A DNA stretch of 30,615 bases, taken from a virus. The notes under the pieces are model-generated. The model had not been told where the DNA came from and made no database searches. It saw nothing but the letters and a program-made list of their open reading frames with translations. Position numbers and translations under genes: made by a program. The DNA lies in IMG/VR virus record IMGVR_UViG_3300024346_000343, positions 1-30,615 of that record; one strand, given 5' to 3'. Positions 1,424-18,120 of this stretch are shown in pieces (within the stretch, counting starts at the first letter, position 1; each line of letters begins with the position of its first letter).

Positions 1424-4129
1424 ATGGGCTGGTTTAGCGGCAAAAAGAAAATCTACGTGTCCTCCTCCACCTACAACTTGGCGGGGGACATCAAGGATCG
1501 TATTCGCTATTTACCTACGATCATTGCGGGACATGTGATCACTGGCTCCAAAAACACAATGACGCAATCCATTGTGGGTAGCTTGCTGAACGGCCCGGCC
1601 ATTCGTCTTCGGGCGTTTGGCCGCTGGGCGCGTTACAGCGGGTATAACAATGCTGTTGGTTGGACTCCAGGGAAAATCCGTACTGTGGTTGAACTGGATG
1701 AGGGGGTGATCATCCCTGAACTACCAGCCCCACCTGGGTCTACCGTATCCATTCAGTCTGCTGAGGTGGACATCTGTGAATACGAATACTGGGTTGACCA
1801 GTACATCTCAGAGAACATGCCTGCTCGATTGGCTGAGGATTACGAATATGATTTCGATGAAGATCTGAATATCATCGCTGTCTACTTCCCCAATGGAGAT
1901 ACCTTCACTTTTTCCCCAGCAAACTTTGACATTTATGGTGACTACCTTTACGTGCTGTACAACTACAGCTATCAGGATGTACCTGGTGTTTTAATCCCTG
2001 GGCCAAACATCACAGTACCAAATGCTGCTGCATTCCCCTCTACTACAGGGTGGACATTTGCGGGCAGTACGTCAGTGAACGAAAGTGTCACGTTGGTAGA
2101 AACAACCACCGTAGATGTGACCTACTCGGACAGCACACCTTCTGAACATTCTGTGTCCAACACAAATAGTCCGAGCAATTACATTCGCTACGACGAGGAG
2201 TGGGGTAAAGTTGAGTTCTCGGGGCAAGATCCTGCACAAGATCGTCTGACCCAAAATCGTCAGGAAATGCACACTGTCCGAACCAAGAAGATTGTCACCA
2301 CCACAGCAAGTGACACTGTGGTCACTGACATGGGAGGAGGTGTCACTAAAACCACCGTGACTACAGTAGAAAGTCAGGCATTAGAAGATGCCTTTTTCTA
2401 TCATGTGGACACTGCGGTTGACACCCTAAAAGGGTGGTCTGACCCCAAAGTATTCATTTATCAACTTGGTTCCGGTAATGCACAACTGGATACCCAGTTC
2501 GGTGTGGCATCCGAAATGTCAGGCAGTTTTTTACCGTTTATTCCTGTGCGCAGAAAGGAACGAACACTTTCACCAACGTACAAGCCTGAGTTGTTTGATT
2601 GGGCAAAGAAGGCCATGAAAAAGGCCACTAAGTCCAAGCTCACTGACATCATCAAAGAGCTGCACAAGAGTAACGATGTGGGTGACATTGACTATGCCTA
2701 CGTCATGTTTGGGGTTGCCCTGAATACCCCAGACGAAGGTGCTCGTGAATACCTGTTTCGGTTCTTCGAATACCTTTACGAAGCAGCTCACACTGGCATG
2801 AGCGAAGCTAGCTACAACGCATGGAAAGCTGCATGGCATGTGGCAGATCAGTCCAAACTTGATTGGCTCACATGGAAAGAGGCCCAGTCAAATCCGGCTG
2901 ATCCTCTGTATGGCACCCCAGATCCTCAATTCATGCGGTATCCGCCTTTACCTGGTACAACAATCAGCCTGCGTTCCGATTCCCTGAACTTCAATATCGC
3001 TATCAGTTTCAGCAGCATCTCTGAATTTAGTGGGGTTGGGCGAGGTAAGGTTGGTGCTCGCCCTGGTGACTGCTGGATAGTTGCTGGTGCTGATTATGTA
3101 TTTGAGTACACCTACAACGGTTCTATGTCAGGACTGTTAGCGCATATTGCCTACACTGATCCACATGGGAAAGTGTCGGTTTATCGACAAGAAACAGAAG
3201 ACACCTATGTTGGTTTTACTATTAACAACCTGAAACACCGCAACACGATATACAAAGGCAAAGGTGTTTCCATCGGTTCCAAGAAAGCCTTGGATGACTC
3301 CGAAGAATCTGGCTTCGTCATTCCGTTGCATGAAGATATTTTCAAAAGAATGTCTCTGGTTAATGCAACACAATCATCGTTTGGTAACTCGTATCTGCTG
3401 ATCAACTGCTACGAAGTAGTGAAGCAAAAGTGGTATCAGACCGGCGCATTCAAGATTGTGCTGATCATCATTGTGATCATCATCAGTGTCTTCACCTATG
3501 GTGCGGGGGCTGGTGCTGGTGCTGGTGCTGGTTTACTTGGTACTGCTGCATCCGTTGGTGCTGCTCTCGGTTTTGCCGGCACAATGGCCATTGTGGTGGG
3601 CACCATTGCAAATGCCCTGGCTGCAATGATGTTGAGTAAACTGATCATGGTTGCATCGACTGCGATTTTCGGTGAGAAAGTCGGCCTAATCATCGGCACC
3701 ATTGCTTCCATTATTGCTTTGAACGTCGGCACAAGCATGGCCAACGGTGGCTCTATGGCTACTGGCTTTAGTAACATGACCCGTGCAGACAACCTGATAA
3801 AGTTGTCGATGGCTGCCGGAGATGCTTACACCAAGTACATGCAGATGTCTGCTGCTGGTGTGAATCAAGAAACACAGACTCTTGCTGCGGAGTATGAGAA
3901 ACGCTCTGATGAAGTCATGGAGATGTGGGAAAAGACCTTCGGTTTCGGTGACATCAATATTGATCCACTGAACCTGACCAGCGTTTTCCGTGATCCCGTC
4001 TATGTCCCTGAAGCTCCAGATGGTTTCCTGTCACGTACCCTCATGACAGGCAACGACATCGCTGATCTCAGCTTGGACATGCTCACCAATTTCGCAGACA
4101 CTACTCTGCAAACGAATCTCCCAATTTGA
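1424..4129 (+). CDS. Large virion protein with hydrophobic, membrane-inserting block, N4 gp53-like by position
   Basis: This protein has 901 residues. The first ~650 are mainly beta-rich and Thr/Ser/Tyr-rich, with no domain I can name. At residues 676-692 a run of Ile/Val/Leu forms a clear membrane segment, followed by a (Gly-Ala)n tract at about 695-704 and further hydrophobic segments to about residue 765 with glycines spaced as in packed transmembrane helices. The last ~130 residues are charged and helical, ending in a likely extended tail. Three cysteines are present. Neighbours are a helical virion protein, a small Gly-rich protein and a murein-degrading protein, so a likely role is an ejected protein that inserts into the cell envelope to make a path for DNA and the giant polymerase. 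That role is inference; the N4 gp53 label comes from gene order. Confidence 0.7.
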   Translation: MGWFSGKKKIYVSSSTYNLAGDIKDRIRYLPTIIAGHVITGSKNTMTQSIVGSLLNGPAIRLRAFGRWARYSGYNNAVGWTPGKIRTVVELDEGVIIPELPAPPGSTVSIQSAEVDICEYEYWVDQYISENMPARLAEDYEYDFDEDLNIIAVYFPNGDTFTFSPANFDIYGDYLYVLYNYSYQDVPGVLIPGPNITVPNAAAFPSTTGWTFAGSTSVNESVTLVETTTVDVTYSDSTPSEHSVSNTNSPSNYIRYDEEWGKVEFSGQDPAQDRLTQNRQEMHTVRTKKIVTTTASDTVVTDMGGGVTKTTVTTVESQALEDAFFYHVDTAVDTLKGWSDPKVFIYQLGSGNAQLDTQFGVASEMSGSFLPFIPVRRKERTLSPTYKPELFDWAKKAMKKATKSKLTDIIKELHKSNDVGDIDYAYVMFGVALNTPDEGAREYLFRFFEYLYEAAHTGMSEASYNAWKAAWHVADQSKLDWLTWKEAQSNPADPLYGTPDPQFMRYPPLPGTTISLRSDSLNFNIAISFSSISEFSGVGRGKVGARPGDCWIVAGADYVFEYTYNGSMSGLLAHIAYTDPHGKVSVYRQETEDTYVGFTINNLKHRNTIYKGKGVSIGSKKALDDSEESGFVIPLHEDIFKRMSLVNATQSSFGNSYLLINCYEVVKQKWYQTGAFKIVLIIIVIIISVFTYGAGAGAGAGAGLLGTAASVGAALGFAGTMAIVVGTIANALAAMMLSKLIMVASTAIFGEKVGLIIGTIASIIALNVGTSMANGGSMATGFSNMTRADNLIKLSMAAGDAYTKYMQMSAAGVNQETQTLAAEYEKRSDEVMEMWEKTFGFGDINIDPLNLTSVFRDPVYVPEAPDGFLSRTLMTGNDIADLSLDMLTNFADTTLQTNLPI
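3509..3532 (+). repeat. Four tandem GCTGGT units encoding Ala-Gly repeats
   Basis: Four perfect copies of GCTGGT encode the (Ala-Gly)n tract just after the first membrane segment of the 901-residue virion protein. Such a tract could change length by slippage and would act as a flexible or tightly packing helix linker. Confidence 0.8.
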
Positions 4130-4607: not shown

Positions 4608-6563
4608 ATGGCCACTCTCACTTGGCGTAATGTCGATAACCCGAACTTCACTGGTGCGATGGCCGGGTATCGTTCGTCTGCTGAAATGTTGAACAACGCC
4701 TTCGATAACCTGCGTCAAGGCTTGGGTGATTTCCAAGCTCAACGCACTGCCGATGCTGACTCGCAAGTGCTGGCGAACTCGCTGCAGTTTTCCGATCCGG
4801 CTGCTTACCAGGAAGCTCTGAAGTCTGGTGCCATTCTTGGTGGCATCGACCCTACTCGTGTCTCCAGCCAGACCATGGGAGCACTCGCCTCCCGTGCCGG
4901 TACGCTGATCAACAACAGCGCAAACGAGTACGACCTTAATCGAGCCAAGGAAACCAATGCAGCCATGGATGCTGCTCGTCCTGCTCTGGTAGCAATAGCT
5001 GAAGCCAATGCTTCTGGCGACCCTGCCAAGATTGCTGCTGCTCAACAGCAGTATGGGCCTCAACTAGCAAACCTACCTGCTGCCGACATCCTGAAGACCT
5101 ACCTCACTGGACAGTCTCTGGAATCTGGTAGTCTGCGTAATGACGCTACTCGCTTCACCAACGACACCACTGTGCGTAACGATGAGGACACTCAAGCAGC
5201 TACTGCTCTGGTGAACCAGATTCGTGAAAACAACATCACTGTGGACGGTGCTCGTCAGGAACTGCTAGCTGCTGACCTTTCTGCTGGTGCTCGTAGCAAG
5301 GCAACTGAGCTGCTGGGTGGCATGTTCCCCGGTATGTTCGGCCCCATTGGTTCCACTCCTGGTGCTGCTCCTGGTGGTAGTAGTGGTGGTTCTGCTGCCT
5401 ATGACACTGTGGTGGGCAATGGTCAGTTTGGTTCCCCGAGCCAACCACTGAGCAGCATGAGCATCGGCCAAGCTATTGAGTTTGGTCAGAATGTTCTGAT
5501 CCCCGGCACCCGTGGTAATCGCCAGCTTGGTCTACCCGCAGACAAGGGCAGCAGTGCTATGGGTGCTTTCCAGATCACCCAAGAGACACTTCAGGATTAC
5601 GCACCGAAGGCACTGGGGTCTGACTGGCAAAAGCAACCCATGTCGGCAGCAAACCAGGACAAAATCGCTGAAGCCATCTTCAACGACCGGAAGCAGGGCA
5701 ATCTGGCAGACACTTGGGTGTCCCTGCCTGACAAGACTCCCGGTGCCTATGCAGGCAAGTCCTGGGAAGAAATGCGTCAAGTCATTGCCCGTGGTGAAGT
5801 GGGTATGGAACTTCCGGGCATTGATGACTTGTTGGCTGCATCTGCAAATGAAGTTGCTGCTGCACAGGGCCAACTCGGTTCCCGAGTCATGTCCAACAAC
5901 GCTGCAGATGGTGCTGCTCAGGATCTGGTAAATAACTTTGGCAGTAATGCCACTGTGGGTTCTGTCACTGATCAGCTTGTGAAGGGTGACTTTGCTGGGG
6001 CCGATGCGAACAAGGTTCGTAACCAGATTCGCAGCATCATGCAGATGTCCGCTTCTAAGGAGTACGGTGGCACTGGTTCTCCCAGCATCAACGCTGCTCA
6101 GGCTGGTGCGATTCTTCAACGCAGTATTGCTACGTCCGATCCACTTGCTGCTGACGGCAACACCGGGTTTACCTCTTCTTGGTTTGCTGATGAGGTGGGT
6201 GTCAGTGACGATGATGTGGCTGCTGCTGTACGCAACTTTAACTCCGGTGGCAGTCTCGATGCTGCTCTGGAAAATCAGCAAGTAGCTCAAGTCAGTCAGA
6301 TGCTGACCCAAGCGCAACAAGCCAGCCAGGGTGCGATGAATGACTTGGTGCAAGCTGCTCGACGTGCCCAGTCCCAACCGGGTGCCCGAGATGAGCTGCC
6401 TCAGTTCATCCAGCGTGTGCAGCAATCCAATCAACGTGTGCAGCGACTGCTGGACAGGCAACGTAGCAGTTCGCAATTTCAAGCAAACCGGGCTGCACCT
6501 CCAAATCAGATTCTTCCCACAGAGGAAGAACTCCAGGCTTTTCAGACTTGGGGACGCTACTAA
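4608..6563 (+). CDS. Internal virion protein with lysozyme/lytic-transglycosylase-like domain, N4 gp51-like by position
   Basis: This 651-residue protein begins 10 bases after the previous stop with a GAGG site. Residues 1-235 are helical, rich in Ala, Gln and Asn. A Gly/Pro/Ser linker (about 245-265) leads to a domain at about 284-400 with SMSIGQAIEFGQ, a Gly-Ser-Ser-Ala-Met-Gly-Ala-Phe-Gln-Ile-Thr core at 314-324, and a TWVSLPD..PGAY..KSWEE segment. This G-S-S-A-x-G-x-[FY]-Q layout is that of phage murein hydrolases carried in the virion; Glu291 is a candidate catalytic acid, not proven. Residues 400-651 are again Gln/Ala-rich helix. There are no cysteines. Likely role: local opening of peptidoglycan during DNA ejection, as in other podoviruses. 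A terminator follows, separating it from the vRNAP gene. Confidence 0.75.
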   Translation: MATLTWRNVDNPNFTGAMAGYRSSAEMLNNAFDNLRQGLGDFQAQRTADADSQVLANSLQFSDPAAYQEALKSGAILGGIDPTRVSSQTMGALASRAGTLINNSANEYDLNRAKETNAAMDAARPALVAIAEANASGDPAKIAAAQQQYGPQLANLPAADILKTYLTGQSLESGSLRNDATRFTNDTTVRNDEDTQAATALVNQIRENNITVDGARQELLAADLSAGARSKATELLGGMFPGMFGPIGSTPGAAPGGSSGGSAAYDTVVGNGQFGSPSQPLSSMSIGQAIEFGQNVLIPGTRGNRQLGLPADKGSSAMGAFQITQETLQDYAPKALGSDWQKQPMSAANQDKIAEAIFNDRKQGNLADTWVSLPDKTPGAYAGKSWEEMRQVIARGEVGMELPGIDDLLAASANEVAAAQGQLGSRVMSNNAADGAAQDLVNNFGSNATVGSVTDQLVKGDFAGADANKVRNQIRSIMQMSASKEYGGTGSPSINAAQAGAILQRSIATSDPLAADGNTGFTSSWFADEVGVSDDDVAAAVRNFNSGGSLDAALENQQVAQVSQMLTQAQQASQGAMNDLVQAARRAQSQPGARDELPQFIQRVQQSNQRVQRLLDRQRSSSQFQANRAAPPNQILPTEEELQAFQTWGRY

Positions 6564-6590
6564 CTAAAACAATTTCGGTGCAGTAACTTT

Positions 6591-6615
6591 GCCCTACTTC
6601 GGTAGGGCTTTTTAT
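6591..6615 (+). terminator. Intrinsic terminator with UUCG tetraloop before vRNAP
   Basis: A 7-bp stem GCCCTAC/GTAGGGC encloses a TTCG tetraloop (6598-6601) and is followed by TTTTTATTT. It lies 28 bases after the gp51-like stop and 64 bases before the vRNAP start. It should reduce transcription into the giant gene, or force it to use its own promoter. Confidence 0.88.
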
Positions 6616-6619
6616 TTCC

Positions 6620-6643
6620 GGTAGAGTACAATTCAGGTAGAGT
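6620..6643 (+). promoter_or_regulatory. Candidate vRNAP promoter region with GGTAGAGT direct repeat
   Basis: The 63-base gap after the terminator holds no gene. It contains GGTAGAGT twice (6620-6627 and 6636-6643, 16 bases apart) flanking TACAAT (6627-6632), one base off the sigma-70 -10 consensus. No good -35 is visible. A late promoter with a repeat for an activator is possible; evidence is weak. Confidence 0.25.
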
Positions 6644-6678
6644 CGCACCTCAAACATACATTGCAATAGGGCATCTTC

Positions 6679-9600
6679 ATGGCCGATCTGAACGACCTCC
6701 TCTCGCAAGCTGCCGGTACTCCTTCCACACAGCCGTCCATGTCTCTTCTTGATGAGAAAAAGGCTGCTGTATCTATGGCTGCTGACGAGAAGAAGGCCAG
6801 CATGGGTGGTACTGGTTTGTCTGACTACGACATGGCAACTGGCCGTATGTACGGTCGTGTTCCTCAGAATGTGTCTGATGTTGAACGGGATCTGATGACG
6901 ATGGATGCGTCGAACCTGTACGGCAAGTACGGCTCCGCAGCATCCGAACTTCTGGCTCAACGCAATGCGGCCAATCGTCAAGTGACCCAAGATGCCACCA
7001 GCGATTGGAATGGCACTCTCAGTCAGGTCGGTACTGACGTAAACGATCTGGTGTCTGGCTATGGTCTAGCTCTTGGTAGTCTGGCTGCTCTAGGTGTCGG
7101 TCTAGTCAATGATGATGCTGGTACAGCTATGGCCTCTGGCTTGGCTGACGCTAGTAAGTGGGCCAACAGTCTGCAATCTGATGAGCGTCAGGGTCGCCGT
7201 AATGTGGCTGAATCACTGAACCGTTTGGACGCCCGAGACATCCAAGCTCAGATGGAGAAGGATGTTGAAACTGACGGTGAGCTGATGGCCAGTCTGAAAG
7301 CCATTGGTCGTCAGGCGTACTCCGCTGTTTCCAATGCCACTGAAGACGACACCAACCTGATTGGCGGATCTATTCAGGCACTTGGTTCCTTATTGGCTGC
7401 TGGCCCTGTGACTAAGGGTTTGAAGGCTGTTGGTGGTTTGGCTGTGGCCAACAACACTGGTCGGGCCACTGTTTTGGCTGCTGAGATGGGCAACCCTGCA
7501 GCTCGTGCTGCTGTGACTATGGCAGAAAATGCTCCCGTTCTGACTGCTATTGGCGGTCTGGAAGCGGGGGGTGCGTATCAGCAAATCACCTCTGATGTGA
7601 TGGGCCGTGATTTCGATACCCTCTATGCAGAGTCTCCACAGTTCCGTGAACTGGTAGACGGTGGCATGGAGCCTGCTGATGCACAGATTCAAGTAGCTTC
7701 TGATGCAGGCAAGATGGCTGCTGCTATCACTGCACCCATCGCTGCTGCTACTGGCACTCTAGTCAGGGGTTTTGAGGCCAATCCTCTGGCCCGTACCAAT
7801 GCCAGTCAGATGCTGTCGAACCTGTTCAGAGAGCCAGTAGAAGAAGCGATCCAGGGTGGTACTTCTCAACTGGCTCAGAACTATTCCGAAAGCAAGACTG
7901 CCAACGAGAATCAAGAACTGGTTGAGAACGTCGGTCGTCAGATCGGTGAAGGTGCCCTGTACTCCGTTGGTTCCACGGCTGTTACCCAGATCCCCAACGC
8001 CGCTGCTCAGGTTGCTTCTACTGCCAGCAAGACAGCTATGGGTGCTCTGCGTGCCAATGCAGAATCCCGCAACAAGGCAAATGAGGCTACTTCGCCGGTA
8101 TCGGATGAAACTGTGGCTGCTGCTGTGGTAGAAGCTACCGCCAATGCTGCTCAGGATGAGCAAGCCATGCACCAAGCAGTTGCCTCTATGGAAGGCACTG
8201 ATGAGCAGAAGGATCGTGCCAGCACCTACGTCAATACGGTGATGGATTCGATTAAATTCAACGAAGATGACCTGCTTGCTATCAGCCCAAGTGCCCAGAT
8301 TCGTAGTGCCCTGGTTGGCTCTAAAAACCGTCTGGAAGCAGTACAACGTCTGACTGACATGGTGGCTTCGACTGAGCCAGCTAGCCCTGAGCACCTGCGT
8401 GCTGGCTTCGCACTCTACGAGATGCTTGGCCCATTGCAGAATGCTCTGGAATCCAACTCTGAACAGGCTGATGCTGTTCTGCCGGATTCTCCGGTAGGTA
8501 AAGTTTTGGCTGGCTACGAAGCCGTATTGACTGGCATTCAGAACAGCCCGAAAGTGCTTCAAGCTCTGCAGCAAATGCAGGCTGCAGTTGAACGTCGTGC
8601 TGCTCAGCCTACTGCTGAGATCACTGATGCCACCATCGAAACCACTGTCGGTCAGCAGGCAGCTCAGGACACTATCGACATCGCTCAAGTGGCCCCAGAC
8701 AAAGCCAGCTTACGTGCTACTGAACAGGTTCTGTTCCAGGTGAGCCAAGGCAAGCTGCAGGTCACTCCTCAGCAGAAAGCTGCCTTGGATAGCACTGTTG
8801 CACTACTTCGTGCTGCTCAAGCTGCAGATGCGGAAGCAGCTCAGCTTGGCCTTTCTGACAAGACCAGCAAGGTCACTCGCAACATTCAGAGCGAAGACAG
8901 TGAAAAAGGGGAATCTGCGTTGCAGCACTCCCAAGGCATCATGTCGGCATGGAAGGCGGGCAACTTTGACCTCGCACGAGATCGTCTCGTCCATTTGGGC
9001 GAGTTGGTTCAACACATGAAGAACAAGGTCTCGGCCCTGAACACACATGTGCTGGCCGGAAACTCGAATGCAAGCGGACTCCAGTATCAGGCGCTTACTT
9101 CCGACCGGAAGTGGGTGCCCTCTAACCTGAAAATGTTCGTCAACTTTGGTAGCAAGAAATCTATTCAGCAGGCCCAGCAAATTGGTTCTGATGCGACGTT
9201 CCTTGCCAATGTTTTCAATGGCTTGACTACCGCTTTTCCCAATCTTGGTGTTCCGCATGTTGATGTCACTCCGCTGGATTCTTCACTCAACGCTTCGGCT
9301 GATGAAATCCTATCGGCTTACAAAGCCAGCCGGGCGAAAGCCCCTACAGTGGATGCTACCACTACTGTGCCTGTCGAAACCTCAACTCAGACCGGATATG
9401 AATCCTTGTCTGATGAGGAGCTTAATGCACAACTGAACAATGCGTTTGATGCAGTTCGTGCTGATCCTCGTGATCGTCAAACTCGTACCATCTTCGATGC
9501 CCTGGATGAGGAAATGACTCGTCGTGAGGACATTGCTGCGGCTCAGAACCAACTGGAAGAGGAGGAGGGGCGAGTTCTGCTAGAAGCTCAGCAGGCTGCT

Positions 9601-12600
9601 AAACCAGCTCCTGCCCCAGTAACTGAGGAATCTTCGTCGGTTACGCCTTCTGACACTTCTGTGACCACCTTGTTCGGTGAGACTGGTTCCGAAATTGATG
9701 GTGGCACTCTGCAAGATTTGGCCGCCCTATCGGAAGATGAGTACATCTCTAAGGTAAACCCTTCTGGTAAGCGCCTCGATTCTGCGTTTGAACTGGGTAA
9801 CGGCCTGCAGAGTACCTATGCCGAAGAAGGTATCCCTATCCCTACTGATGCTGAAAAGATTGCTAGCAAGGATGGGGTTGATTACTTGTATGACAAAAAT
9901 GGTTCGTTTATCGCCGTCAAAGACGGAAAGGCCATTGGGTTCTACGGCATTCAATTTGGTGAAGTCATGGCTACCGTTCTCCCTGGTTACCGCAAGCAGG
10001 GGATCGCCAATGAGTTGGCCATGCACTTTTTCCGTAAATTCCCAATGGCTACCGCTGACGGCATGACCGTTGGTGGTGAGGCAACTCGTCGTAAAGTGTT
10101 TCGTGCCCTATCAGCCGAAGTCGCCAACTTCGTTGAGCAGGCTGCTAGTGTCAGCGAGTTGGGTGCGCGTGAACGTCTACTCGAAGGACAGAAGTTGCTG
10201 GATTCTCTTACAGAGGACTTGGATGACGCTGGCGAGGCTGCTGTCGAAAACCTCTACTCGGATATGTTCAACGAGAACAATATCCGTGAAGCCTTCGCTC
10301 CTGTGCGTGCGCGTATTACTCGACTGGCTTCCTCTGAGTTCGTGCAACGAATGGACGCCAAGATCAACGAGCTGGCTACCGATCAGGATCTGGCTTCTGA
10401 AGAAGCAGTGAGTATCCTGAAGTGGTTGGAAGGTTTGGCGGACAAGCAGGACGAATTGCAGTCCGATCTGTTTTTGGATGCTTTGTCAGGTGAGGATGCC
10501 GTAAAAGCAGTACCGACCACTACCTCTTCTGGTAGTGGTATAGCTACGCTGTATCCAGACCTCTTCGGTGAAGACAACAACTTCATCAAGTCTTTCTCCC
10601 TACCAGAAGAGCAACTCACTCGTACCATTGGTTCGGAAAACCCACTGTCCTTCATCATGGCTGGTCTGAAGAACAGTCTGACTCTGACTGATCTGATGGG
10701 CCGTGCCCCGAAGAAAGACTTCAACAAGGACGTGGCTGCCGCATATCAAAACTACTTGGCTATGGGTGCCCAGATCCAAGAGAAGCTGAACGAAAATCTC
10801 CAGCAGTTCTTGGATGATCAGTATTCCAGCAGGGTGGCTCCAACTCGTCGTGAGCTGATTCTGGGCAACCTGCCATTTGAGACCTCGACAGGCACCAAGT
10901 TGACTGGCGAGGATCTTGCTCGCCTGTCTGCTGGTAAGACCCTGAATATCACTGAAGTGAACGGGGATACCCTGACCTACAACGATGAGTTGGCACAGAC
11001 CGCCATCCTTGCTGGTCTTCAGTGGTTGTTGACTGCTGACCAACGTGTAACTCAGTACGATGACACTGACATTGCTTCCATGACTGGCCTTGATGTTGAG
11101 GCCGTTACTGAACGCCTGATTACCGATCTCAGTCGTGGTCTTGGTATGGCTGAAGCCAAACGTGCTTTGGCATCTAAGATCTCGCAATACTGGGGTCTGA
11201 AAGCCAAGAGCACTGGCCGTAAGGGCTACACCGAAGGTGTCCCTGAAGCCATGGCTGCGGAGATCCTGCGTGTGATGTTGGATAACGGTGTGATCCAACG
11301 AGAAGAAGTGACGATCACTGAAGCAGACGGCCTACCGCAATTGGACAGTGGTAAGCCCAATGTGAAGACCTTTGTGCGTCTGGTGCCCCCGGCACTGGAG
11401 AAGCCTTCCGCTACCTCCCTTGGTTCGCCTCTGCTGACCTACCCAACTGCCATTGAAGATGCAGTGATGGTGACGCCTGTTGAGCGTACTTATGTGGGTG
11501 ACGGTGAGCTGCCTGAAGTGGCTACCAAGCAATTGCGCAACCCGGACGTAGACAACACTGCACAGCAGAAGCAAGTCATAGAGAACGAGCAGAAGACTCC
11601 GTACTACGTGAACTCCCGCATGGTGAGCCTCTTCGCAGCACTGGGCCGGGACAACATCATTGCTCTCTTTGGTTCGCCTGAGAATGGCCGTGTGTTTAAC
11701 ACGAATCATGCCAAGTCTGTTGAAGGGCTGAATCGTGGGATCATTGCTGGCTTCGATCAACTGATGGGCACTGTGACTGAAGCTCAGGGTGTTGCTCGTG
11801 TGGCCGGGCAATCTGTGGAACAAGTGCCTATTCACTACGCATTCAACATGACTCGCGTGGCCCGTGCTCAGATGTTGGGTCGGTATAACCCACAGTCCAA
11901 CAAGTTGGTGCGTGAAGCCATTCTGCCTACTCGTGCCACTCTGAACATGAACACTCGTCAGGGCTACAATAACCTTATGCTGGGTGTTGCTCAGGCACTT
12001 GGCATCTCGGTTCACAAGATGCACCACAAGGATGCCATTGCTAAGGCTGAAGCCATGGTCTCTGGCACTGGTGCTTTGGCTGAAGTGCGTACCCTGCTGG
12101 GTGACTTCCTTACTGCGTACAGTGTTCCGACTGATGCCAACATTTCTGACATTCCGGCCTCTCCTGATCTGACTGCCAAGATCCAAGCTGCATTCGCCAA
12201 AGCAAAAGAACCTGTTTCTCCTGTGGCTCTACATGCCCTGATGGAACTGGCATGGCTGGACAAGCAGGATGCCCGTGGCCGTGCCCAGTTCCAAACTTCT
12301 ATGTATCTGGAAGCGGATGGGATCACCAACGGCCCAATCAATGCCATGGTGCTCTTGGCTCAAGGCGCATTCACATCTGATTGGGTACGTAACGTGGCCC
12401 GTGGTGGTCTGTTCTTTGGTCGTGGCCAGATGACCTCCAACGAGCAGTACGCTGACTTTGACAAGAATGACCTGTACCAGACTTCCACTGACAAGCTGAA
12501 AGAGCTGATGGCTGATCTACGGGGTGAGCTGGCAGGCAATCCTATAGGTGAAGAGCAGATGAATAACCTGCTGTCCCTGATGGATATCTTCATCCCTGAT

Positions 12601-15600
12601 CTGGAATACCAAGGTGGTGTCCTAACCCTGAAGCGTGGCATTGCCAAGAACCCACTCACCATCACCATCTACGGCTCTGGTGAAGCCGGTATCGCCAACA
12701 AACTGGTCAGCATCCTGACTGATGCCATCTACGAACGCATGAGTCTGCTGGCTGAAGCCCGTGCAGTGAACCCACAAGCTACCGTGGCTGATGCCATGTT
12801 CGATGGCGATGTGATTGCTGCTCAAGTGTTTGGCACTAGCTTGTCGAAATTGATTACGAACAGGGCAGTTAGAACCAAGAAGGAAGGCTTGATCTTTGAG
12901 AGAAATGTCTCTTCTCGTGGTAACGCTCAGGTAGATGCAGAGAACTTCACTTTCAATCGTATTGAGCTTGAAAACCTACGCTCCAACATGCGTCACCTGA
13001 TGGTCGTTCCTATGCGGCAAGCCATTGATTCGACCGTGGACGAAAGCACCATGTCGTCTGCCACCTTGATCCGTCAGGCTACTCAGGTGCAGTCGATCAT
13101 TCTGGAAAGCGTCTTCAAGCAAGAAGTACAGAAGGTGACTGATCGTCTGGCTCAGTCTGATAAGTGGCGGAGTCAGGATTTCCTGTCTCAGTCTGAGCTG
13201 AACCGCATCAAGAAGAACATGGCTCACCTGTCGCCGTTCATCAAAACGCCGACTCAGACTTTCTACATTGCTGGTTCACAAGCTGTTGATCTGGATGGTC
13301 TGCGGTATGGGGAAGCTCTGAACGGCACTCTTGAAACTCCAGCTGCTGTAAATGGCCCGGTCAATTCTGGTGTGGCAGGCATCCCGTTCTTGGTCATTGG
13401 TTCCGGGGATGCACAGATGATGCAGAACATCTCTGTTGATCCGAATTCACCTACTGGCACTCTCAAGATCTTCGATGGTATGAACATGCCGTTGGATCAG
13501 ATCGAAAATGGCTCTGCGGTGGCCAATAAAGCAGTATGGGATAGCTGGATGGGCAATCCCCTCAAAGCCGTACACACCAGCTACAGTGCCTTCCTCAAGG
13601 ATGCCCCTTTGGGCAACTACGATGAGGCCACTCGTGCTGCATTGACCCGTGCTCTGATGCCACCTCAGATGTGGAAGCAGAAGGTGTCTGACGCTGCTCT
13701 ACAAGAAGCCATGGAGAATGTACTAACCAATCTGAACAATGCTCAGATATCGGTTGAAGCACGTCACCGTGCCATGGCTCGGGTGCAGGTGTCGGTTGAC
13801 CAGATGGCTGCTGGTGCTACTCCGCACTTCCGTGAAGGTAATGAGGCGGATGCAATCCCTGCCGGGTACAACGAGGAGCAAGTCACCACTCACCTGAACC
13901 TGTTGTACGCAGAGGAATTGGCCAAGCTACGTGCTGAGCCTGTGGCAACTGATCGACTGACCAAGGAGATTATCGACCTTGGCACCAAGCATGAATCTGG
14001 TGTCTACGAGTTCAACTCCACCGACATCCGTAATATCTCCAAGCAGTTCAAGCTGCCCGAAGGACAAGACGGTGTGCTGCGTGATGTCGTGTCTTCCTTG
14101 GCTGCCAAGGGTTACACAATGGTGGTCGGCCCAGCTGCTAACATTCGCAAGTACATCAAGGACACTGGTTCGGTTGGTACTGGTGATCGTCAGGTCGATG
14201 GTGAGATCAAGGGCTTCACCAACATCGGTGAGAAGAAGATCTACTCCCTGAACCCGTCCACTGAAACGATGGTTCACGAGCTGGTGCATGCTGCCACCTT
14301 CGAAACCATTCTGGCTTTCTTCAACGGTGACGCTCTACATCCTGCGACCAAAGCTGCAGTGAAACGCATTGGGGTGCTGATGGATCAGTTCCTGAATATG
14401 GAGGGTGAGCTGGTGCAGCCGAATGCTGCTCTGCAACAGGCGTACAACGACGCTGTTGCTGCAATCAAGAGTTGGCAAAACGACCGTGGCCTACCTACTG
14501 CTGAGCGAAATGCCGGTGCTCTCAACGAGTTCATGGCCTGGAACTTGTCCAATCAGGAACTGATTCGCTTGGGTCAACGTACCCAGGCCAGCAAACTGGC
14601 CCGCATTGTCCACTCTGTACTGAAAGCGGTGCGCTCCCTGTTCTGGGGTAAGCATCGTGTGCCCACCCCGGCCAAGGACATGTTCACCAATCTGCGTTTC
14701 AACTCCGCGATCATCATGCGGAGCAACCCGACTACTGCCCAACGGTTCGTGTCCGGTGTGACCTTCCAGAACAGCCAGTACGGCAACAATGACCGTCTGA
14801 GCGAGATCAACAAAGCGTTCAACACCAGTGTTGCACGCTATCTCGGCACCACTGTTCAGCAAGGTGAAGTGGCACCATCCGATGCCGTGGACACTGGCAT
14901 CCTGAACTCGCTGCGTGTGGCCGATTCGTTCCAAGCCAATGGGTTCGTGATGACTCAACAGGAGGCCACCACCTTCAAGAGCATCGTGGCTGCCCTGTCC
15001 ACTGAAGCCGCACTGGATAGCAATGCACTCACCTTGGCTCAGAAGCTGTATGCCCATGTGACCAAGCAGCTCAAGGTTGAGCATTTCATGCAGGATGCAG
15101 AAAGCACCAACCCGGCTGATCGTTACTACGCACAGCGCAAATTTGACAGCATCATGGGCACCAATCTGGTGGAGGCAGACCTGAAAGGCCGCTCCACTCT
15201 GATGCCTGCTTTCTTGGCTCTGGCCACTGTTAATGATGAGTTCCGGGCTGTGCTGGCTGAGATGGACATGCCTGCTTCCCTGAAGATGGAAGAGCGTTCT
15301 GTGGATGCTGCACTGACCAACACTGGTCGTCGCATGATGGACTCTCTGGGCAACCGCATGGCTGGTGTCACCAGTGCCAGCAAGAATGTGCAGCAAGCCA
15401 TTGATGCCTTGCAGAACCACATCGCAGATCAAGTCCAGAATCGTGAGATGTTCATCGACCAACTGGCCAGCAAAGCTGGACGTGGTGTTGATCGGGCGAA
15501 CGAAATCATCGTGGAGAAGGCCAGCCGTTTGGCTGAAGTCGTGGGTGCCAAAGGTGATGCACTGAACCAAGATGGCCGCAACCTTGTGACCCGCTCGATT

Positions 15601-18120
15601 GGTGCCAGTGCTCAAGCTCTTAGCATCCTGACTTCCAATGAGCGTGCTGAGTTCGCAGCTCAGGGTGTGACTGAGGCCATGAACCAAGTGAACGGATTTG
15701 CTCCTATCCGAGCACTGTTGAATGACTTTGTTGGTCGTACTATGTCGAATGCCGGAGTCTATGACCTGATCAAAGGTGTTCGGTCGATGGTGCAACAAGC
15801 TCGTCAGCAGTTCCGTGAAGATCTGCCGCAGACCATTGCAAGTAAGTTCAGCCGAGAGCTGACCAAACAAGAATGGGCCAGCCTGTTCCGTGGTATCGGA
15901 AAGACTGACCTGGCTTCTCTGCGTAGTCACTTCAATAATGCGGACATCCGCAGCATGTTGTCTGATGCTTCTAACCTGCAGAACCGTGTGTCTACCCTGG
16001 AGACCTACATTCAGAATGTAGATCCAACACACTTTGCTCTGTATCAGGAGAAGATGGCGCAACTTGCCACCTACATGAATACTGGTGTCCCCGGTCGTAA
16101 CCTGCTGCGTAATGCTGAAGCTATTGCTCGTTTGCTCAATGAGAACACTCAAGACAACTTCTTCACCAAAGATGCAGACTTCGTTGCTGCTGTAGACCAA
16201 CTCGTTACCATGTATGCACTGCAAGACTTGTCTCAAGCAGACAAAGATGTGCTTGTGGCGATGGTTCGTAGTGAAGCAACTGGCCTGGACTTCGCTGTTG
16301 ACTACCTCGTGGGGCAACGTAAAGAAGAACAGAGCAAGATGTCTCCTGCTGCTGCACTGAACCACTACAAAGGACACATTCCGCAGGAGAACGCTCCTGG
16401 CGTCAGCATGATGATTGGTGGCCCGCGTAACCACGCTAAGCTGCTGAGCAAAAGCTACGTCCGTGTTGGAAACTACAAGGGTGGTACTGCCGAGCGTCTG
16501 CGTAATAAGGATCTGGGCTACTACTTTGCTCCGGTGGCTGCTCGTGCTGCTTTTGAGCAAGGCATCATGCAGAACGTCCGTCAGTCGGTGTCCGGTGTAG
16601 ACGCCAACACTGGCTATTCCCTGGTTCCTACCGCTGGCCGTGTGACCGAACCAACCAAGGTTCGTATCCTGGCCCGTTCCATGAAGACTGACCGCACTCA
16701 GGCTGAAGCCCTGCTGCCAGTGTTTGATATGAACGGCAATGTGATTGCTGTAGAGCGTTCTCTTGATCCGGTGGTCATGGAACGTGTTGCCGGTGAACAG
16801 CATCTAGCCAATGCCATCGGTGTGTGGCGTGGCCGTCAGCACGAAGAAGCAACTGCTGGTGAGTACAACCGTACTTTGGTGGATCGTTTGAAAGAGGTGT
16901 TCGATGCTGACATGGCCAAGTCCCGTTCCAACAGCAGCCAGTACATTGATCTCTTTGGTTCCATCGAAGATCCAGTGATTGCTGATGCTGTGAGCCTCAT
17001 GTCTCCGGAAACTCGTGCCTACGTGCAGGAGGTATTTGGCCCAGAGTTCATGGTTCGTAAGGATATGTTGCTGGATGTAATGGGTGAGCGTCAGGCTACT
17101 GTGGGTGATGCCTGGACTGGCAATACTCGCTGGTCTGAAACAACTCAAGCCACTGTGCGTGAACTGGCCCAGTCGTTATTTGGCAACAAGGCATACCAAT
17201 ACTTTGTCAACAGCGAACGTGCTGTGCAGGGTCTGGTAAGTGACATGCGTACTCTGATCGTGATCAAGTCGGTGGTGGTTCCCATGACTAACCTGATGTC
17301 GAACATGTACCAGCTTGCTAGCCGTGGCGTTCCGCTGAAGAACATCGTGCGTGGGATGCCCCGTAAGGTGGCTGAAGTGGACAGCTACGTCAGCAGCCGT
17401 CGTCGTCAGATCCAAGTGGAGGCAGAACTGCGGGCTGCTGTGGGCAACGTGGTTGCTGAGCGTCGTCTGAATGCTGAATGGCAGTCGATCCAAGATGGCC
17501 ACAAGCGTCTGAGCATCTGGCCGTTGATACAGGCGGGTGAGTTCTCCAGCATCTCGGATGCTCAGGTATCCCGTGAGGATCTGGAACTGACCAAGGGCCG
17601 TCTGGCTGAGTACATCGAAGGTGCGGTCAGCAAGCTGCCTGCTCCGATTGCCACCCTGGGTCGCTATGGTCTGATCACCAAGGACACTGCACTGTTCAAA
17701 GGGCTGCAGAAGTCGGTGGAGTACGGTGACTTCCTGGCCAAAGCAATCCTGTTCGATGATCTGACCAAGCGTAAGCAGATGAGCAAGAAGGAAGCACTGG
17801 GGCGCATCACTGAGGAGTTCGTGAACTACGACCGCCTCTCTGGACGCTTCCGGGCCACTCTGGAGAATCTTGGTCTTCTCTGGTTCTACAACTTCAAGTT
17901 GCGGATCACCAAGGTTGCCCTGAGTACCATCCGGAACAATCCGTTGCATGCTCTGTTGGCTACTGCTGCACCGGCCCCAGAACTCTTCGGTTCGGTGGGT
18001 CTGCCGACGCAGGACAACATCTTCGCCAAACTGGCCGATGGCAGTCTGGACTTCTCAATGGGGCCGGGCCAGGGCATGAATGCTCCGGGTCTGAACCCTT
18101 GGATGAATCTGGTGCAGTAA
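6679..18120 (+). CDS. vRNAP: Giant virion-encapsidated RNA polymerase (vRNAP, N4 gp50-like)
   Basis: This protein has 3,813 residues, somewhat longer than the 3,500 I remember for N4. The N-terminal ~1,000 residues are Ala-rich helix with short hydrophobic stretches (about 118-142, 235-258, 340-356). A GNAT-like motif follows at 1104-1113. The polymerase core (about 1300-2430) shows the motifs of T7-family single-subunit RNA polymerases: T1725-x-x-x-R1729 before NPQ, motif A with D1880 (EADGITNG), motif B R1986/K1990/Y1998, and motif C D2266 (KIFDGMN). An HELVH zinc-peptidase-like motif sits at 2533-2537. The C-terminal third is helical, ending in a conserved-looking FVNYDRLSG...LGLLWFYNF segment near 3715-3745. 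I find no cysteine anywhere. In N4 this enzyme is packaged, ejected with the DNA and transcribes early genes from hairpin promoters on single-stranded template; the same role is expected here. The start ATG has only a weak AGGG site. Confidence 0.93.
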   Translation: MADLNDLLSQAAGTPSTQPSMSLLDEKKAAVSMAADEKKASMGGTGLSDYDMATGRMYGRVPQNVSDVERDLMTMDASNLYGKYGSAASELLAQRNAANRQVTQDATSDWNGTLSQVGTDVNDLVSGYGLALGSLAALGVGLVNDDAGTAMASGLADASKWANSLQSDERQGRRNVAESLNRLDARDIQAQMEKDVETDGELMASLKAIGRQAYSAVSNATEDDTNLIGGSIQALGSLLAAGPVTKGLKAVGGLAVANNTGRATVLAAEMGNPAARAAVTMAENAPVLTAIGGLEAGGAYQQITSDVMGRDFDTLYAESPQFRELVDGGMEPADAQIQVASDAGKMAAAITAPIAAATGTLVRGFEANPLARTNASQMLSNLFREPVEEAIQGGTSQLAQNYSESKTANENQELVENVGRQIGEGALYSVGSTAVTQIPNAAAQVASTASKTAMGALRANAESRNKANEATSPVSDETVAAAVVEATANAAQDEQAMHQAVASMEGTDEQKDRASTYVNTVMDSIKFNEDDLLAISPSAQIRSALVGSKNRLEAVQRLTDMVASTEPASPEHLRAGFALYEMLGPLQNALESNSEQADAVLPDSPVGKVLAGYEAVLTGIQNSPKVLQALQQMQAAVERRAAQPTAEITDATIETTVGQQAAQDTIDIAQVAPDKASLRATEQVLFQVSQGKLQVTPQQKAALDSTVALLRAAQAADAEAAQLGLSDKTSKVTRNIQSEDSEKGESALQHSQGIMSAWKAGNFDLARDRLVHLGELVQHMKNKVSALNTHVLAGNSNASGLQYQALTSDRKWVPSNLKMFVNFGSKKSIQQAQQIGSDATFLANVFNGLTTAFPNLGVPHVDVTPLDSSLNASADEILSAYKASRAKAPTVDATTTVPVETSTQTGYESLSDEELNAQLNNAFDAVRADPRDRQTRTIFDALDEEMTRREDIAAAQNQLEEEEGRVLLEAQQAAKPAPAPVTEESSSVTPSDTSVTTLFGETGSEIDGGTLQDLAALSEDEYISKVNPSGKRLDSAFELGNGLQSTYAEEGIPIPTDAEKIASKDGVDYLYDKNGSFIAVKDGKAIGFYGIQFGEVMATVLPGYRKQGIANELAMHFFRKFPMATADGMTVGGEATRRKVFRALSAEVANFVEQAASVSELGARERLLEGQKLLDSLTEDLDDAGEAAVENLYSDMFNENNIREAFAPVRARITRLASSEFVQRMDAKINELATDQDLASEEAVSILKWLEGLADKQDELQSDLFLDALSGEDAVKAVPTTTSSGSGIATLYPDLFGEDNNFIKSFSLPEEQLTRTIGSENPLSFIMAGLKNSLTLTDLMGRAPKKDFNKDVAAAYQNYLAMGAQIQEKLNENLQQFLDDQYSSRVAPTRRELILGNLPFETSTGTKLTGEDLARLSAGKTLNITEVNGDTLTYNDELAQTAILAGLQWLLTADQRVTQYDDTDIASMTGLDVEAVTERLITDLSRGLGMAEAKRALASKISQYWGLKAKSTGRKGYTEGVPEAMAAEILRVMLDNGVIQREEVTITEADGLPQLDSGKPNVKTFVRLVPPALEKPSATSLGSPLLTYPTAIEDAVMVTPVERTYVGDGELPEVATKQLRNPDVDNTAQQKQVIENEQKTPYYVNSRMVSLFAALGRDNIIALFGSPENGRVFNTNHAKSVEGLNRGIIAGFDQLMGTVTEAQGVARVAGQSVEQVPIHYAFNMTRVARAQMLGRYNPQSNKLVREAILPTRATLNMNTRQGYNNLMLGVAQALGISVHKMHHKDAIAKAEAMVSGTGALAEVRTLLGDFLTAYSVPTDANISDIPASPDLTAKIQAAFAKAKEPVSPVALHALMELAWLDKQDARGRAQFQTSMYLEADGITNGPINAMVLLAQGAFTSDWVRNVARGGLFFGRGQMTSNEQYADFDKNDLYQTSTDKLKELMADLRGELAGNPIGEEQMNNLLSLMDIFIPDLEYQGGVLTLKRGIAKNPLTITIYGSGEAGIANKLVSILTDAIYERMSLLAEARAVNPQATVADAMFDGDVIAAQVFGTSLSKLITNRAVRTKKEGLIFERNVSSRGNAQVDAENFTFNRIELENLRSNMRHLMVVPMRQAIDSTVDESTMSSATLIRQATQVQSIILESVFKQEVQKVTDRLAQSDKWRSQDFLSQSELNRIKKNMAHLSPFIKTPTQTFYIAGSQAVDLDGLRYGEALNGTLETPAAVNGPVNSGVAGIPFLVIGSGDAQMMQNISVDPNSPTGTLKIFDGMNMPLDQIENGSAVANKAVWDSWMGNPLKAVHTSYSAFLKDAPLGNYDEATRAALTRALMPPQMWKQKVSDAALQEAMENVLTNLNNAQISVEARHRAMARVQVSVDQMAAGATPHFREGNEADAIPAGYNEEQVTTHLNLLYAEELAKLRAEPVATDRLTKEIIDLGTKHESGVYEFNSTDIRNISKQFKLPEGQDGVLRDVVSSLAAKGYTMVVGPAANIRKYIKDTGSVGTGDRQVDGEIKGFTNIGEKKIYSLNPSTETMVHELVHAATFETILAFFNGDALHPATKAAVKRIGVLMDQFLNMEGELVQPNAALQQAYNDAVAAIKSWQNDRGLPTAERNAGALNEFMAWNLSNQELIRLGQRTQASKLARIVHSVLKAVRSLFWGKHRVPTPAKDMFTNLRFNSAIIMRSNPTTAQRFVSGVTFQNSQYGNNDRLSEINKAFNTSVARYLGTTVQQGEVAPSDAVDTGILNSLRVADSFQANGFVMTQQEATTFKSIVAALSTEAALDSNALTLAQKLYAHVTKQLKVEHFMQDAESTNPADRYYAQRKFDSIMGTNLVEADLKGRSTLMPAFLALATVNDEFRAVLAEMDMPASLKMEERSVDAALTNTGRRMMDSLGNRMAGVTSASKNVQQAIDALQNHIADQVQNREMFIDQLASKAGRGVDRANEIIVEKASRLAEVVGAKGDALNQDGRNLVTRSIGASAQALSILTSNERAEFAAQGVTEAMNQVNGFAPIRALLNDFVGRTMSNAGVYDLIKGVRSMVQQARQQFREDLPQTIASKFSRELTKQEWASLFRGIGKTDLASLRSHFNNADIRSMLSDASNLQNRVSTLETYIQNVDPTHFALYQEKMAQLATYMNTGVPGRNLLRNAEAIARLLNENTQDNFFTKDADFVAAVDQLVTMYALQDLSQADKDVLVAMVRSEATGLDFAVDYLVGQRKEEQSKMSPAAALNHYKGHIPQENAPGVSMMIGGPRNHAKLLSKSYVRVGNYKGGTAERLRNKDLGYYFAPVAARAAFEQGIMQNVRQSVSGVDANTGYSLVPTAGRVTEPTKVRILARSMKTDRTQAEALLPVFDMNGNVIAVERSLDPVVMERVAGEQHLANAIGVWRGRQHEEATAGEYNRTLVDRLKEVFDADMAKSRSNSSQYIDLFGSIEDPVIADAVSLMSPETRAYVQEVFGPEFMVRKDMLLDVMGERQATVGDAWTGNTRWSETTQATVRELAQSLFGNKAYQYFVNSERAVQGLVSDMRTLIVIKSVVVPMTNLMSNMYQLASRGVPLKNIVRGMPRKVAEVDSYVSSRRRQIQVEAELRAAVGNVVAERRLNAEWQSIQDGHKRLSIWPLIQAGEFSSISDAQVSREDLELTKGRLAEYIEGAVSKLPAPIATLGRYGLITKDTALFKGLQKSVEYGDFLAKAILFDDLTKRKQMSKKEALGRITEEFVNYDRLSGRFRATLENLGLLWFYNFKLRITKVALSTIRNNPLHALLATAAPAPELFGSVGLPTQDNIFAKLADGSLDFSMGPGQGMNAPGLNPWMNLVQ
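9850..10062 (+). other. GNAT acetyltransferase-like segment inside vRNAP
   Basis: Residues about 1058-1128 read as alternating strands (FIAVKDGKAIGFYGIQFG, then VMATVLPGYRKQGIANEL). The P-x-Y-R-K-Q-G-I-A-x-x-L string at 1102-1113 matches the acetyl-CoA-binding motif A of GNAT proteins (R/Q-x-x-G-x-G/A). Activity is unknown; the segment is short for a complete GNAT fold, so it may be a remnant or a lookalike. Confidence 0.5.
11848..13500 (+). other. Single-subunit RNA polymerase catalytic motifs within vRNAP
   Basis: Four motifs lie in the right order: TRVAR with R1729, motif A D1880, motif B R1986-x3-K1990-x7-Y1998-G, and motif C D2266. In motif B the spacing equals that of T7 RNAP (R627, K631, Y639). 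The spacing D-to-K 110 and K-to-D 276 is near the N4 mini-vRNAP values I recall (111 and 281), and unlike T7 (94 and 181). Confidence 0.9.
14230..14560 (+). other. HExxH zinc-metallopeptidase-like segment within vRNAP
   Basis: H2533-E-L-V-H2537-A-A follows a strand-like KIYSLNP segment and is followed about 85 residues later by NEFMAW, whose Glu could be the third zinc ligand as in gluzincin-type peptidases. HELVHAAT strings are common in giant phage and conjugative polyvalent proteins. Catalysis is not shown. Confidence 0.6.

Follow-up and report, generated by a model that had tools for sequence, protein, structure and literature searches.

A divergent GNAT-like domain in the linker of a Schitoviridae virion RNA polymerase as a candidate injected effector

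The largest open reading frame of the window (the whole 30,615-base stretch of viral DNA analyzed here) encodes a giant virion RNA polymerase (vRNAP) with a divergent GNAT-like domain in the flexible linker between its N-terminal domain (NTD) and its polymerase core. The full explanation proposed for this domain (approximately residues 1047–1151), which is considered moderately probable, is that it is linker cargo that is injected with the vRNAP and acetylates a host protein to favor establishment of the infection. The best reading of the domain is as a swappable effector cargo that acts before phage gene expression. Its derivation from a GNAT is very probable, the chances of catalytic activity are evenly balanced, and the domain may be degenerate. 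We infer folding, acetyl-CoA binding, catalysis, and a target for the domain.

The ORF extends from position 6679 to position 18120 on the plus strand. Its 3,813-aa product matches PHROG 2206 along residues 26–3812 (E = 0, 2771 bits), the PDB chains of N4 gp50 (E = 0), and four Pfam vRNAP domains, which fall within residues 1629–2377. Based on these similarities, the product is a Schitoviridae (N4-like) vRNAP, a giant protein (typically about 3,500 aa) composed of an NTD, an N4-type RNAP core, and a C-terminal domain (CTD). The predicted gene order around it fits the canonical Schitoviridae arrangement: structural protein genes are found upstream, and a RuvC-like resolvase, an SSB, a primase, an exonuclease, a DNA polymerase, and a Dda-like helicase are encoded downstream on the opposite strand. 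The limits of the NTD (positions 6679–9336, plus strand, residues 1–886) come from blastp and profile comparisons with related vRNAPs, in which homology to N4-like NTDs extends to approximately residue 885–900. The RNA polymerase core (positions 10540–13944, plus strand, residues 1288–2422) was delimited with the N4 RNAP domain structures and the Pfam vRNAP domains. At the start of the CTD, the sequence contains a HExxH zincin-like motif (HELVHAAT, positions 14275–14298, plus strand, residues 2533–2540), as in the N4 C1 domain, where a HExxH zincin-like counterpart is likewise located at the start of the CTD (PMC12633501). A single ORF thus combines the RNAP core, the zincin-like motif, and the GNAT-like domain, and the presence of several enzyme or effector domains in one ORF is a feature of polyvalent proteins.

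Between the NTD and the core lies an expanded linker of approximately 400 aa (positions 9337–10539, plus strand, residues 887–1287), which holds the insert. In N4, the NTD–RNAP linker is a 100-aa low-complexity segment (residues 907–1006; PMC12633501), and the boundaries of the insert in the window coincide with it. The domain, which the preliminary description had assigned to the N-terminal region of the vRNAP, therefore has to be relocated to the linker between the NTD and the polymerase core. Related vRNAPs were collected by alignment searches, as a scan with the single vRNAP gave none, and blastp comparison with 17 of them yielded two blocks of similarity in nearly all cases, from residue 1 to approximately 885–900 and from approximately 1272–1287 to the end. 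Both boundaries were available for 117 dereplicated vRNAPs, in which the linker has a median length of 130 aa (range 44–741), or 115 aa in the 83 proteins whose core start aligns well. Many of these linkers are merely low-complexity, and both length and content vary freely among relatives. In a tree of the RNAP core, the closest relatives carry linkers 52–80 aa long that do not contain a GNAT-like domain, and the sister sequence (L095, tree support 0.996) has a 75-aa linker that also lacks it. The insert is likewise missing from IMGVR_UViG_3300009059_000042, the nearest record in this survey. Conservation of the motif residues in close homologues had been set beforehand as a test, and all of these homologues were found to be without the whole insert. 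The absence of the domain from every close vRNAP homologue is, in other words, an absence of the entire insert and not a decay of the motif. The GC and GC3 contents of the insert differ little from those of the remainder of the vRNAP gene, so there is no compositional sign of recent foreign origin.

The same linker also includes a probable helical hairpin (LSDEELN...LDEEMTRREDI, positions 9406–9534, plus strand, residues 910–952), which was delineated with a home-made profile. This pattern of approximately 40 aa, (L/M)SDxxLNxxL...LDxEMxRRE, occurs in the linkers of at least eight vRNAPs (that of the window and L028, L042, L087, L091, L111, L112, and L123). The hairpin profile matched 8 of 130 vRNAPs, seven of which were its seeds, with all matches inside the linker and nowhere else in these proteins; a strict regular expression retrieved 3 linkers versus the 8 found by the profile.

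The preliminary description had identified a GNAT acetyl-CoA-binding segment at positions 9850–10062, and the motif itself was confirmed: read on the plus strand in the frame of the ORF, these positions encode residues 1058–1128 (AEKIASKDGVDYLYDKNGSFIAVKDGKAIGFYGIQFGEVMATVLPGYRKQGIANELAMHFFRKFPMATADG). The sequence DGKAIGFYGIQ corresponds to residues 1082–1092. The putative β4 strand (GEVMATV, positions 9958–9978, plus strand) was placed by a phmmer alignment to the N-acetyltransferase 7wx5 and by our own GNAT profile, and Glu1095 in this strand occupies the position of an acidic residue in other GNATs, where it could have a catalytic role. The acetyl-CoA (pyrophosphate) loop and the start of α3, which were assigned from the profile match, follow at positions 9982–10017 on the plus strand (residues 1102–1113, PGYRKQGIANEL, from P1102 to L1113). 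Here, the loop pattern (Q/R)-x-x-G-x-(G/A) is present as R1105-K-Q-G1108-I-A1110, with a strand predicted before it and a helix predicted after it from the sequence and a low-confidence model. The domain as a whole was assigned approximate limits of positions 9817–10131 (plus strand, residues 1047–1151), based on PF00583, PF13508, our own GNAT profile, and the low-confidence model, which contains four strands followed by a helix.

Sequence profiles place a GNAT-type loop at this site, in agreement with the earlier assignment, but the match is confined to the first half of the GNAT profile (positions 25–84 of 116), a region that comprises strands 2–4, the acetyl-CoA loop, and helix 3. When all six frames of the record were searched with PF00583, the motif was the single match (E = 1.9e-5). 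When 99 aa were excised and submitted to hmmscan, PF00583 matched with 20.8 bits (E = 4.7e-4) against a gathering cut-off of 20.7, which is a marginal crossing because the limits of the excision were set by the analyst; PF13508 (E = 8.6e-4) and PF13673 (E = 0.14) matched as well. With flanking sequence included, the PF00583 score falls below the cut-off (14.1 bits for the whole protein, 18.3 bits for 367 aa, and 18.1 bits for the linker). A home-made profile derived from 13 GNATs (12 bacterial, one from a phage) scored the domain at 14.4 bits, versus 8.6 bits for the best among 5,000 shuffles. Applied to 130 dereplicated vRNAPs, this profile ranked that of Stenotrophomonas phage Pokken and that of the window as the top two, with the window second. 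Among approximately 132 virus records with related vRNAPs, some of them redundant, only Pokken matched PF00583 at E ≤ 0.01. Judged by these profile scores, the segment resembles a GNAT beyond chance.

The canonical β5/α4 half, including the (A)xxxY-x-x-x-GF region and the general-acid tyrosine, is not recognizable in the domain; beyond profile position 84 (of 116), there is no Pfam match. The (A)xxxY-x-x-x-GF β5/α4 region is typical of GNATs, although it is not universal. Apparently in its place, the domain has T1130-VGGE-A1135 (positions 10066–10083, plus strand), which blastp and alignment show to be common to gp113 of mycobacteriophage Alice. The latter was named a polyvalent-type GNAT by Iyer et al. 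2017 (PMC5512222), and its Pfam match is likewise partial (positions 30–84). Since the match of this polyvalent GNAT also ends at position 84, the absence of the β5/α4 half is compatible with a variant GNAT. In a single blastp comparison, Alice gp113 and the window domain share 18 of 47 residues (38% identity over 47 aa, E = 0.001), and they have in common V-x-P-x-(Y/F)-R-(K/R)-x-x-(I/V)-A followed by T-V-G-G-E-A. Related segments also occur in two plasmid-encoded proteins, a polyvalent protein from Pseudomonas and a GNAT from Streptomyces. These similarities suggest, as a lead, that the window domain belongs to a variant GNAT family with Alice gp113. The subfamily is no more than a lead, because the window comes only second of 5,001 sequences when scored against shuffles with a profile of three gp113-type GNATs; a gp113-type profile run against 321 genomes retrieved mostly ordinary GNATs and lent the subfamily no further support. 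No close homologue of the domain was found by an IMG/VR scan or by tblastn searches in phages and plasmids. The best tblastn match among 50,697 phage records is prophi52-1 gp34 (E = 0.2), a true GNAT (Pfam E = 8e-9), with which the pairwise BLAST alignment places the loop out of register, so this pair alone is no proof of homology. The best plasmid match (E = 3, weak) is also annotated as a GNAT.

A GNAT is present at the same site in another lineage. The linker of the Pokken vRNAP contains a sequence (NKEW...GRGQGGARKVLTSL...GFYESMGF) that is assigned as a GNAT by PF13508, PF13673, PF14542, and others, each of which is individually weak. The same GNAT is found in the vRNAP linkers of Piffle (96%) and Xanthomonas phage PB119 (85%). 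In the vRNAP of Paxi, which is 92.6% identical to that of Pokken before this site and 94.6% identical after it, approximately 110 aa are missing exactly at the position of the GNAT. No similarity between the Pokken GNAT and the window domain is detectable by sequence comparison, and the two fall at separate places in the tree, where the sisters of each are insert-free. Because of this dissimilarity, tree separation, and the insert-free sisters, two separate gains of a GNAT are likelier than one.

Additional enzyme domains occupy this position. A Pfam scan restricted to 56 long linkers identified ART-PolyVal in 12, Peptidase_M90 in 7, and DUF3990 and NADAR in 1 each, and in the surveyed vRNAPs the ADP-ribosyltransferase (ART) domains occupy the same NTD–RNAP linker. 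We lean slightly toward a general interpretation in which the Schitoviridae NTD–core linker is a cargo bay that acquires, loses, and swaps effector enzymes (GNAT, ADP-ribosyltransferase, NADAR, zincins, and unnamed domains), with the window GNAT as one such cargo. If so, each phage would inject its own set of enzymes as part of the polymerase, ahead of gene expression.

Several other observations were made during the survey of these linkers. The 742-aa linker of IMGVR_UViG_3300035698_000573 (L152, positions 5637–7862) contains an ART-PolyVal domain (E = 1.2e-9), a NADAR-like segment (E = 9e-4, below cut-off), and an M90-like zincin; an ADP-ribosylating domain and a possibly ADP-ribose-removing domain within one injected protein would be striking. 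A stretch from ESPWLFADGTVVGSNGDHIS to TFYKGSEQPFVSLQLFD is conserved in the linkers of Escherichia and environmental vRNAPs (L006, positions 4859–5509; L038, L042, and L055) and has no convincing Pfam match. The long linkers of L168 (positions 5982–7877) and L154 (positions 6117–7856) include more apparently globular segments and HExxH motifs that have no Pfam match, and that of L154 also includes a ParB-like looking stretch (GNTRTAVA). A GNAT-like stretch between the ART and the zincin of EE36phi1 (L014) gave no Pfam match and is not claimed. Three vRNAP contigs are found in metagenome-assembled genomes called archaeon, Clostridia, and Anaerolineales (L085, L087, and L089); as N4-like phages are known from Gram-negative hosts, these are probably misbinned phage contigs. 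Lastly, a gene adjoining the vRNAP of Klebsiella phage MY01 (L092, positions 2001–3425) is publicly annotated as an acyl-CoA reductase, a label that looks wrong because the gene stands among ejection protein genes.

The resemblance to a GNAT could be due to chance, in which case four β strands and a helix would carry a coincidental R-x-x-G-x-A. The sub-threshold Pfam scores with flanks included and the second place of the window under the three-sequence gp113-type profile are in keeping with such a coincidence, as are the structural models. AlphaFold2 was run on single sequences and gave a pLDDT of 48.5 for 167 aa and of 61.5 for 105 aa, the latter with the expected succession of four strands and a helix but at low confidence. 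The Foldseek and VIA-align matches listed for these low-confidence models include no GNAT; they are small β-meanders, mostly propeller blades, and an anti-CRISPR chain (Z of 4.2). Models made without an alignment are, though, too weak to count for or against a GNAT fold. Coincidence is improbable given that several GNAT profiles converge on one place, that the excised domain reaches the Pfam cut-off and outscores all shuffles with our own GNAT profile, that the related vRNAP genomes yield almost no such matches, and that another lineage has a clearer GNAT at the same site.

A rather unlikely reading, but one that deserves more weight, is that a GNAT has decayed or lost catalysis and persists as a spacer in a permissive linker, where it may bind acetyl-CoA or nothing. 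In favor of this reading, only half of the GNAT profile is matched, a canonical β5/α4 is not seen, none of the relatives carries the same domain, and linkers range freely from 44 to 741 aa and are often low-complexity. Yet the loop retains its key residues, the reading frame stays open across 400 aa, the TVGGEA segment is like that of Alice gp113, which shows the same partial Pfam profile, and other linkers carry recognizable enzyme domains and not remnants. The domain might instead acetylate the ejection proteins or the polymerase of the phage itself, with effects on membrane tethering or vRNAP switch-off, and have no host target. Its tethering in the polymerase beside a membrane domain would suit such a role, as would, by analogy, the intramolecular regulation of the N4 vRNAP (PMC12633501). 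This alternative is highly improbable, since nearly all vRNAPs, including relatives at approximately 47% identity, are without the domain and Pokken and Paxi differ in the presence of a GNAT; for the same reasons, the GNAT is not part of the core vRNAP mechanism.

An injected effector that acts on the host remains the preferred reading, and its delivery can be modeled on N4. The virion RNAP of N4 belongs to a class that is injected into the host along with the DNA, its NTD inserts into membranes, and it is thought to traverse the tail like a string of beads (PMC12633501). Approximately 4 copies are packaged per virion; once injected, they are held at the inner membrane by a tether, and the polymerase lies in the cytoplasm. 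Packaging, injection, membrane tethering, and the number of approximately 4 copies per virion would apply to the window vRNAP by analogy with N4. The GNAT-like domain would be packaged in the head together with the polymerase, thread the tail as one of the beads in the string formed by the vRNAP, and reach the cytoplasm at the inner membrane ahead of any phage transcription. Because the N4 vRNAP is tethered at the inner membrane with its polymerase in the cytoplasm, a linker domain would face the cytoplasm at entry. Acetyl-CoA is available in the host cytoplasm, and the domain would most likely use this cellular pool to acetylate a host protein in favor of infection establishment, for which host defense or transcription proteins are conjectured as the likeliest targets. 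As approximately 4 vRNAP copies per virion would limit a stoichiometric effector, the domain would act catalytically or on a scarce or local target. Delivery with the DNA at the moment of infection, as originally envisaged, is thus supported by the membership of the protein in the N4-type vRNAP class, which is known to be injected (PMC12633501), and holds if the window phage behaves like N4.

Little is understood about the N-terminal third of vRNAPs or about the diversity of these giant proteins, and a linker that accepts different enzymes would account for part of this diversity. It would also show how an obligately lytic phage acts on its host in the minutes before the first transcript and indicate where to seek counter-defense enzymes in Schitoviridae. 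The model of bead-by-bead tail passage in N4 predicts that an extra small domain in the linker would be tolerated. The near-identical flanks of Pokken and Paxi, with and without a GNAT, make the cargo idea testable on existing isolates.

Among known systems, the literature already describes injected polyvalent proteins, the GNATs within them, and vRNAPs fused to ART. The openly searchable literature (main texts) yielded no report of a GNAT in a vRNAP. Of wider interest are the linker as a place where cargo can be exchanged and the natural comparison of Pokken with Paxi. The earlier remark that no role had been described for such a domain in this family holds for GNATs in the literature thus covered, but Iyer et al. 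2017 (PMC5512222) describe both N4-type vRNAPs that are fused to an ADP-ribosyltransferase and further injected polyvalent proteins that contain GNATs, propose host-modifying roles for them, and judge the polyvalent GNATs RimI-like and likely protein-modifying. The RNAP-module fusions reported in the text of that paper involve ART, lysozyme, and PBECR; a fusion to a GNAT, as in the window, is not mentioned in this text.

Coliphage N4 gp50 (structures 9pnq, 11gp, and others) shares the NTD, RNAP, and CTD layout of the window vRNAP, whereas it has a 100-aa low-complexity linker at the site of the 400-aa insert-bearing linker. The vRNAPs of Pokken and Piffle (Stenotrophomonas) and PB119 (Xanthomonas), which are annotated only as RNA polymerase, also carry a GNAT in this linker; the Pokken GNAT matches the second half of PF00583 (GFYESMGF), whereas the window domain matches the first. 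In the second family of polyvalent GNATs (Alice gp113 and conjugative elements; PMC5512222), to which the window domain may belong, gp113 shows the same partial Pfam profile as the window domain. Alice gp113 also resembles it in having a basic loop ahead of the helix and P-x-A ... T-V-G-G-E-A after α3, whereas gp113 is a separate protein, the window domain lies within a vRNAP, and their overall similarity is slight. Rac of phiKMV-like phages, a phage GNAT that is reported to act on the α subunit of host RNA polymerase (PMC7552054), is a precedent, by analogy, for a phage GNAT that acts on host transcription. In its description, Rac is phage-encoded and acts during infection; it is not presented as part of an injected polymerase. 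The vRNAP of Roseovarius Plymouth podovirus 1, which carries an ART (PMC5512222), combines the same kind of giant injected polymerase with an extra enzyme domain for which an action on the host at entry is predicted.
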